Shown piece after piece: positions 2,998 through 39,768 of a stretch of 64,000 bases of DNA; position 1 is the first letter of the stretch, and every line of letters begins with the position of its first letter. The translations under genes were made by a program, and so were the position numbers. Below the pieces are notes generated by a model. That model made no database searches, had not been told where the DNA came from, and was given only the letters and a program-made list of their open reading frames with translations. Origin of the DNA: Gammaproteobacteria bacterium HGW-Gammaproteobacteria-11 (GTDB taxonomy: Bacteria > Pseudomonadota > Gammaproteobacteria > Pseudomonadales > Pseudomonadaceae); assembly GCA_002840055.1 (NCBI GenBank), contig PGZJ01000006.1, forward strand, positions 62,001 through 126,000, given 5' to 3'.

Positions 2998-3033
2998 GGG
3001 GACCTCGGTGGCTGAGACAGTTTGGATTACTGT

Positions 3034-3206
3034 ACAAGCTTCAAGCGGCAAGCTACAAGCCGCAAGCAGCAAGTAAAAACCTTTCGCGGCGGGGCCGCCG
3101 CTCCCACCCAGCATGAGTTTCACTTCACTGGTAGGAGCCGCGGCCTCGCGGCGAAGGGGTTGGGCTTGGTTTAAGCTTGCGGCTTGTAGCTTGCCGCTTG
3201 TAGCGG
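3034..3206. repeat. Paired inverted heptad arrays (26-bp perfect inverted repeat) enclosing two inverted REP-like hairpins (REPIN)
   Basis: CAAGCGGCAAGCTACAAGCCGCAAGC at 3042-3067 is the exact reverse complement of 3175-3200; REP-like hairpins at 3081-3107 and 3131-3157. Confidence 0.9.
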
Positions 3207-3217
3207 CTGTGGAACGC

Positions 3218-4372
3218 TCAGAGGAATCCTTCGAGCAGATCATTGAGAAACAGCCGTCCGCGTTCGGTCGGGCGCAGTTGCTGGTCCCAGGGTTCCAGCA
3301 GGCCTTTGCTGACGGCCTGGTTCAATAGCGGGGCAATGCTGTCGAGGGACTGGCCGGTGCGGTCCTGGTAGTGGCTGGCGGGGACGCCGTCTACCAGGCG
3401 CAGGGCGTTCATCAGGAAGTCGAAGGGCAGGTCTTCCGGGCTCAGGTTCTTGCGGCCGGCGCAGTAGGCTTTGGTTGGGTCCAGGTAGTCCTTGGGCAGG
3501 CGGGTTTTCCAGTAGCGTTCGATGCGGCCATCCGGGTAACTGAGCTTGCCGTGGGCACCGGCACCGATGCCGAGAAAGTCGCCGTACTGCCAGTAGTTCA
3601 GGTTATGCCGTGCCTGCCGGTTGGCTTGGGCGTAGGCGGAGACTTCGTATTGGCTCAGCCCGACCTCAGCCAGGCGCGCTTGTCCGGCTTCCTGAATGGC
3701 CCAGAGGGTGTCTTCAATCGGCAGGATTGGCGGCTTGTTGTAGAACACGGTGTTGGGCTCCAGCGTCAACTGGTACCAGGACAGGTGTTCCGGGCCCAGC
3801 TCTATGGCCTGGTTGATGTCCGCCAGGGCGTCATCCAGAGTCTGGTCCGGCAGGCCGTGCATCAGGTCCAGATTGAGGTTGTCGAAGCCGGCCTGTCGCG
3901 CCATGGCCACGGCGGCCAGCGCTTCGCGGTTATCGTGAATCCGTCCCAGTGCCTTGAGGTGTTTGGCATTGAAGCTCTGGATGCCGATCGACAGGCGATT
4001 GATACCGGCGGCGCGGTAGCCGGCAAACTTGGCCTGCTCGAAGGTGCCGGGGTTGGCTTCCAGGGTAATTTCAATATCGCTGGCAAAGTTCAGGCGACTG
4101 GCCATGGCCTCCAGCAGGCGGCCAAGGCTCGCTGCGGAAAACAGACTGGGCGTGCCGCCACCGAAGAAGATCGAGGTCAACTCACGGCCTTGTGCGCCGG
4201 GCAGGTCCTGATCCAGATCGGCGATCAATGCGTCGATGTACTGCGCCTCCGGCAGACCCTGTTCGCTGACATGCGAGTTGAAGTCGCAATAGGGGCACTT
4301 GCGCACGCACCAGGGGATGTGGATGTAGGCCGCCAGGGGCGGCAGACCCTGAAGGGGAGCGTTCTGAGTCAT
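3218..4372 (-). CDS. hemW: Radical SAM heme chaperone HemW
   Basis: IHIPWCVRKCPYCDFNSH, FFGGGTPSL, HGLPDQT. Confidence 0.93.
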   Translation of the reverse strand: MTQNAPLQGLPPLAAYIHIPWCVRKCPYCDFNSHVSEQGLPEAQYIDALIADLDQDLPGAQGRELTSIFFGGGTPSLFSAASLGRLLEAMASRLNFASDIEITLEANPGTFEQAKFAGYRAAGINRLSIGIQSFNAKHLKALGRIHDNREALAAVAMARQAGFDNLNLDLMHGLPDQTLDDALADINQAIELGPEHLSWYQLTLEPNTVFYNKPPILPIEDTLWAIQEAGQARLAEVGLSQYEVSAYAQANRQARHNLNYWQYGDFLGIGAGAHGKLSYPDGRIERYWKTRLPKDYLDPTKAYCAGRKNLSPEDLPFDFLMNALRLVDGVPASHYQDRTGQSLDSIAPLLNQAVSKGLLEPWDQQLRPTERGRLFLNDLLEGFL

Positions 4373-38868: not shown

Positions 38869-39062
38869 TGGAAGCTGGAGGCCGGAAGCTTGAAGTAGCC
38901 AGTGGGGGTAGGAGCAGATCGTTATAGCTGCGAGATAGGTGTTGACAGCTGTAATGCTAGCCTCAGACTTTTCCAGCTTCCAGCTTCCAGCTTCCAGCTT
39001 CCAGCTTCCAGCTTCCAGCTTCCAGCTTCCAGCTTCCAGCTTCCAGCTTCCAGCTTCCAGCT
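38869..39062. repeat. Paired inverted heptad arrays; right arm is 13 perfect tandem copies of TTCCAGC
   Basis: Left TGGAAGC TGGAGGC CGGAAGC TTGAAGT (38869-38896); right (TTCCAGC)13 at 38971-39061; degenerate REP-like GTAGGAGCAGATC..CTGCGA in the core. Confidence 0.95.
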
Positions 39063-39614: not shown

Positions 39615-39768
39615 TTTCGGCTGAAGGCTGAAGGCTGAAAGCCAGAAGCCGTCCGAGATTGCTTGAAAGAGGATGCAAGACAAGGAGTATCGCTTGACTG
39701 CTGGAACCCAGAACATAAGTTGTTCAGCCTTCAGCCTTCAGCCTTCAGCCTTCAGCCTTCAGCCTCTT
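39615..39768. repeat. Paired inverted heptad arrays
   Basis: Left TGAAGGC TGAAGGC TGAAAGC CAGAAGC (39622-39649); right five exact GCCTTCA copies (39727-39761) with partial flanking units. Confidence 0.9.

Follow-up and report, generated by a model that had tools for sequence, protein, structure and literature searches.

Is the nested palindrome that lies between hemW and the gene for an iron-containing alcohol dehydrogenase (ADH) a new composite mobile element, or do two unrelated kinds of hairpin share one intergenic spot? The original prediction described an exact 26-bp inverted repeat, built of heptad units, that encloses an inverted pair of REP sequences (a REPIN), and suggested that the whole was a larger composite unit. 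The window analysed here, a stretch of 64,000 nucleotides, corresponds to C54:62001-126000 of a draft genome (G000) of 3.24 Mb in 82 contigs, which is 76% complete. The genus is probably Halopseudomonas, because the ADH gene is closest to named species of that genus, its nearest named relatives including Halopseudomonas yangmingensis (87%) and H. formosensis (82%). For comparison within the genus, 36 further genomes were used.

Anatomy of the element

The REPIN and the heptads are located between hemW and the ADH gene, both of which are on the - strand (Table 1); for the subfamily of the ADH, every NCBIfam match was below its cut-off. The exact 26-bp inverted repeat and the inverted REP pair inside it were both confirmed, and with one mismatch allowed the arms lengthen to 30 bp (3038-3067 / 3175-3204). 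The free bases of the left array read, in order, TT GG TA CG AG, and 13 bp separate the right array from the hemW stop codon. The compensatory change noted in the original prediction is also real: stem pair 9/20 of REP 2 is flipped from G-C to C-G relative to REP 1. The element folds far more stably than shuffled sequences, both as RNA (-114.8 kcal/mol, z -11.5) and as DNA (z -10.1).

Table 1. Positions, within the window, of the features at the hemW-ADH intergene
Feature	Position	Strand	Description
ADH, 386 aa	1837-2997	-	iron-containing alcohol dehydrogenase; downstream of hemW, same direction
TACTGTA	3028-3034	-	TACAGTA on the - strand; conserved ahead of the ADH gene in many members of the genus
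Left heptad array	3035-3073	+	CAAG at 3035, 3042, 3049, 3056, 3063 and 3070
Left 26-bp arm	3042-3067	+	exact reverse complement of 3175-3200
REPIN	3081-3157		inverted REP pair, inward GTRG tags (TT dimer), 23-bp spacer
REP 1	3083-3107	-	GTGGGAGCGGCGGCCCCGCCGCGAA; GTGG tag at 3107, stem GCGGCG/CGCCGC, loop GCCC (G000:C54:65083-65107)
REP 2	3131-3155	+	GTAGGAGCCGCGGCCTCGCGGCGAA; GTAG tag at 3131, stem GCCGCG/CGCGGC (G000:C54:65131-65155)
Right heptad array and arm	3175-3204	-	free bases GG TA CG read on the - strand
hemW	3218-4372	-	radical SAM heme chaperone, TIGR00539 399.7 bits; 3' end toward the element

The inverted REP pair and its cognate RAYT

G000 holds 53 exact copies of the REP (pattern GTRGGAGC-N12-GCGAA) and at least 14 inward-facing inverted pairs of the focal type. 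Among 23 distinct copies, 99.3% of the stem cells are paired, and 22 stem cells are changed on both sides, as against 5.8 in shuffles. The genome carries two main RAYT genes, one of which (C56:3896-4348; 149 bits to NCBIfam REP_Tyr_transpos, with a cut-off of 80) has focal-type REPs on both sides; the RAYT gene that was to be sought elsewhere in the genome is thus present. Orthologs of this RAYT, with 70-77% identity, are found in G030, G013 and G014, in which the REP pattern has 61, 24 and 37 matches, respectively; in the closely related G006, no RAYT match and only four REP copies were found.

In all defining features that were open to testing, the focal inverted REP pair is a genuine REPIN: a GTRG tag is followed by a short palindrome, the stem covaries, inverted pairs recur, and a RAYT gene is flanked by the same REPs. 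With the described REPINs (REP doublets that form a hairpin; PMC3116915), the GTAG-tagged REP superfamily (PMC3733652) and the RAYT systems (PMC2817692), the locus shares the GTRG tag, the short covarying stem, the inward inverted pair, the short spacer, the intergenic site, the many copies and a cognate, REP-flanked RAYT gene. There is no essential difference from known REPINs, the stem GCGGCG/CGCCGC (with variants) being this lineage's own. The focal REPIN is an ordinary, already known kind of mobile hairpin, unusual in its placement.

Two other arrangements in G000 were observed. The second RAYT gene (L001, C17:257574, about 970-2500) lies amid tandem repeats of about 109 bp that hold GTCGAGATGGAACTCGAC palindromes, and its surroundings are not of the focal REP type. 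At C17:290300-295500 (L094 and L095), an array of tandem copies, each of about 137 bp, has REPs alternating with GGTCGAGATGGAACTCGACC / GGCCGAGTTCCACCTCGGCC palindromes and has the look of a BIME that combines two RAYT families.

A family of heptad hairpins that includes the arms

Of 199 Pseudomonadaceae genomes, 114 contain AGCNNCA triplets, and 13 of the 19 genera are represented among them; the reversed pattern, used as a control, gave almost no matches. Single genomes have up to about 400 matches to the AGCNNCA pattern, and example loci of the hairpins are L063-L088 and L210-L249. In stretches from G000, G001 and G076, each of the 67 array pairs is convergent (CAAGC ... GCTTG), and there is no divergent pair. 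The order of the genes around the pairs was -- in 29 cases, ++ in 17, +- in 12 and -+ in three, and the hairpins start at a median of 10 bp from 3'-facing gene ends, as against 25 bp from 5'-facing starts, the gene calls being made in three genomes with a home-made codon score. The loops have no common sequence; their 5' edge is A-rich (45%, as against 20% inside) and their 3' edge T-rich (48%, as against 22%; p about 1e-17 in Fisher's test for either edge), and one loop (L064) contains a textbook terminator. The class is characterised by a constant AGC..CA and by freely varying NN and copy number. The focal element, with its convergent CAAGC arrays close behind the hemW stop codon, fits this family.

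Between the arms of a pair, the free NN bases agree no better than in shuffled pairings (29 matches as against 32.4 +/- 4.3), so that the pairing of the arms rests on the fixed AGC..CA positions, and the idea that heptad hairpins in general have exactly pairing arms was rejected. In one locus (L078; G000 C33:156105-156414) the arms have been homogenised separately, with 12 TG units on one side and nine CA units on the other, and another (L088) has 13 TG units on one side, which suggests frequent slippage. How surprising, then, is the exact identity of the focal arms? Because five of the seven positions are fixed in the family, much of it is automatic. The free bases of the focal arms agree in three consecutive units (GG, TA, CG), and this is the only one of the 67 pairs with three consecutive matching free dinucleotides; when arms were shuffled among pairs, at least one such three-unit match arose in 15% of trials, and the identity over 26 bp is therefore only mildly unexpected.

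The focal region had no match in Rfam, and for eight heptad loci the Rfam matches at the hairpins were far below the family thresholds. In open-access full text, no paper was found that names the heptads or prints their sequence, and the AGCNNCA hairpins apparently lack a published name. Heptameric intergenic tandem repeats are known from Xanthomonas (GGGAATC) and Nostoc (GGGGAYT) (PMC4692102); these share with the AGCNNCA arrays the seven-base unit, the intergenic site, a variable copy number and the occurrence of inverted repeats. The AGCNNCA arrays, however, have another sequence, are not of the G-quadruplex type and, unlike the Xanthomonas and Nostoc heptamers, are paired head-on behind stop codons. 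Elsewhere in the window, (GGCTGAA)3 at 39619-39639 faces (TTCAGCC)6 at 39723-39765 across an 83-bp loop, and (TTCCAGC)13 is found at 38971-39062; these suggest that there are several sequence classes of heptad hairpins.

Composite unit or chance nesting

Heptad arrays were absent from 14 other REP stretches of G000, 11 of which have inward-facing pairs, and REPs were absent from the arms and loops of 26 other heptad stretches, a sample of the heptad loci of that genome. A search for heptads followed, within up to 30 nt, by a REP, in 37 genomes of the genus and 399 of the family, returned a two-sided composite only at the focal locus and at its G014 ortholog; four one-sided matches with two heptads were found in three other genomes. 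This is the outcome that the original prediction had itself named as counting against it, since the association was found only at the focal locus and in its G014 ortholog, and the claim of a larger composite unit has to be given up: REPs and heptads are otherwise separate in the sampled loci. The REPIN in the heptad loop is most likely a chance nesting of two unrelated kinds of hairpin rather than a new composite mobile element.

A composite mobile unit, in which the RAYT or another transposase would move the REPIN and the heptad arms together, had in its favour the perfect 26-bp arms, with a run of matching free dinucleotides that no other pair shows, and, on contig 17 of G000, tandem copies of 137 bp in which REPs alternate with another palindrome. 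It also has precedents, in that REP dimers lie within longer palindromes in Anabaena variabilis (GTAG-15), Halothiobacillus neapolitanus (CGTC-1) and T. roseum (GTAG-23) (PMC3733652). In those cases, however, the association recurs in many copies, whereas the focal one is limited to one orthologous locus, and outer palindromes of the focal type are common without REPs. No second copy exists outside the orthologous site in the sampled G000 loci or the 399 family genomes, the arms of the orthologs vary in free bases and in length, and G013 has no arms yet retains its REPIN. Already largely refuted, the composite unit was rejected on its failure to recur at non-orthologous sites, and we regard it as highly improbable. 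A preference of REPINs for heptad hairpins as landing sites, with the RAYT targeting hairpin loops exposed as single-stranded DNA and REPINs entering them above chance, is also improbable, if slightly less so. RAYTs are related to single-stranded DNA transposases (PMC3116915), REPINs and heptad hairpins both occur in intergenic gene ends, and a rough estimate that assumes about 350 kb of intergenic DNA gives 0.05-0.1 expected coincidences as against the one seen; yet only one independent two-sided event was found in hundreds of genomes, many of them with numerous heptad hairpins, and a preference cannot rest on one event.

History of the hemW-ADH site

Comparison of the hemW-ADH intergene among relatives, proposed with the original prediction as a search for precise insertion or excision, showed the REPIN present, absent or collapsed in different orthologs, and no clean empty site, that is, an intact heptad hairpin without a REPIN, was seen among the orthologs compared. 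The alignment of the four orthologs is loose outside the REPs. The G014 ortholog carries heptads to the left and to the right of its REPIN, and their free bases differ from those of G000; that of G013 has an intact REPIN and its heptads are gone; in that of G006 the left heptads are kept, there is no right array, and the REPIN is reduced to CCCTTCGCCGCG-TAAGGG, its flanks being still recognisable. This collapsed form resembles the decay route in which an internal deletion leaves a single long palindrome (PMC3116915). In a phylogeny of the two genes that flank the site, the four group as (G000,(G013,(G006,G014))).

The simplest reading of these orthologs would be a single REPIN insertion before the four species split, followed by decay. 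Both heptad arms were probably ancestral at the site as well, because the two genomes that have both of them, G000 and G014, lie on either side of the root, with independent growth of an arm as a possible alternative; since no intact empty site was found, the REPIN may have entered the hairpin or the arms may have grown around the REPIN. We consider it unlikely, although less so than either of the readings weighed above, that the arms came after the REPIN, through expansion of the ADH-side heptads by slippage and templating of the second arm by intrastrand copying. Templated copying would account for the exact 26 bp, homogenisation within arrays is common elsewhere (as in the unequal arms of L078), left arms occur in G000, G014 and G006 and right arms only in G000 and G014, and most REPIN-free members of the genus keep a single GGCTGCAAG-like word at this place. 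Against this stand the presence of both arms on either side of the clade root and the chance-level likeness of arms elsewhere, which means that templating is not general. The REPIN presumably entered an existing heptad hairpin, and the site appears to be old, vertically inherited and decaying rather than a moving unit. The four species thus provide a decay series for a REPIN, in one of which the RAYT was lost together with the collapse of the REPIN.

In another genome, G031, which has no REPs of the focal pattern, the hemW-ADH intergene (L038) contains a palindrome, CCTTCGCGGCAGTGCTGCCGCGAAGG, beside GCTGGAA heptads; this palindrome could be what remains of an old REPIN that collapsed at this site.

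A putative 3'-end structure of hemW

Since the right arm starts 13 bp behind the stop codon, as in the heptad family, the element is best read as a hemW 3'-end structure with a REPIN in its loop, two independent kinds of hairpin having come to occupy one spot; we put the probability of this reading at roughly three in four. The outer arms would be one copy of the family-wide convergent AGCNNCA element, able to fold in transcripts from either strand. The hemW transcript would form a 26-bp stem capped by the REP hairpins, and such a stem would be expected to impede the progress of RNA polymerase or of 3' exonucleases; it could serve in transcription termination, in protection of the hemW mRNA end, or in both, setting the ADH gene apart from hemW. 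The RAYT, acting on single-stranded DNA, presumably placed the REPIN in the loop in the ancestor of the four related species, after which REPIN and heptad pair would have been inherited vertically while decaying. The REPIN would then be a passenger, able to lengthen the stem-loop, whose own mobility belongs to the RAYT system. Both the termination or mRNA-end function and the transposition by the RAYT are inferred.

The heptad hairpins share with intrinsic (bidirectional) terminators a stem-loop just after the stop codon, and their loops likewise start A-rich and end T-rich. Unlike intrinsic terminators, however, they have the stem outside the A/T tracts, and most loops have no obvious terminator hairpin; a scan of the focal loop for intrinsic terminators, in the form of a G+C-rich hairpin with a T run behind it, found none that was clean on the hemW (-) strand, and its single weak site lay on the opposite strand. 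A broader reading, which we hold tentatively and at a little under even odds, is that the arms belong to an undescribed class of 3'-end elements found throughout the Pseudomonadaceae, namely length-variable structures for two-way 3'-end formation or termination that occasionally become landing pads for REPINs. Should these hairpins prove to end transcription or to shield the ends of mRNAs, the variation in heptad copy number would allow read-through within operons to evolve quickly in a large bacterial family. The main value of the locus is that it led to these abundant paired heptad hairpins at gene 3' ends.

The region upstream of the ADH gene

The conserved TACTGTA directly abuts the left heptad array. 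Most other members of the genus have neither element, and carry the GGCTGCAAG-like word near the TACTGTA before the ADH gene; word and heptamer together form a putative -35/-10 region of that gene. Since a consensus scan of the hemW-ADH intergene found no promoter, it is conservation on which the proposed -10 box rests. At 3010-3034 of the window and in the orthologs, TGAGACA-N9/10-ACTGTA is conserved upstream of the ADH gene in many members of the genus, and is possibly a promoter or an operator.
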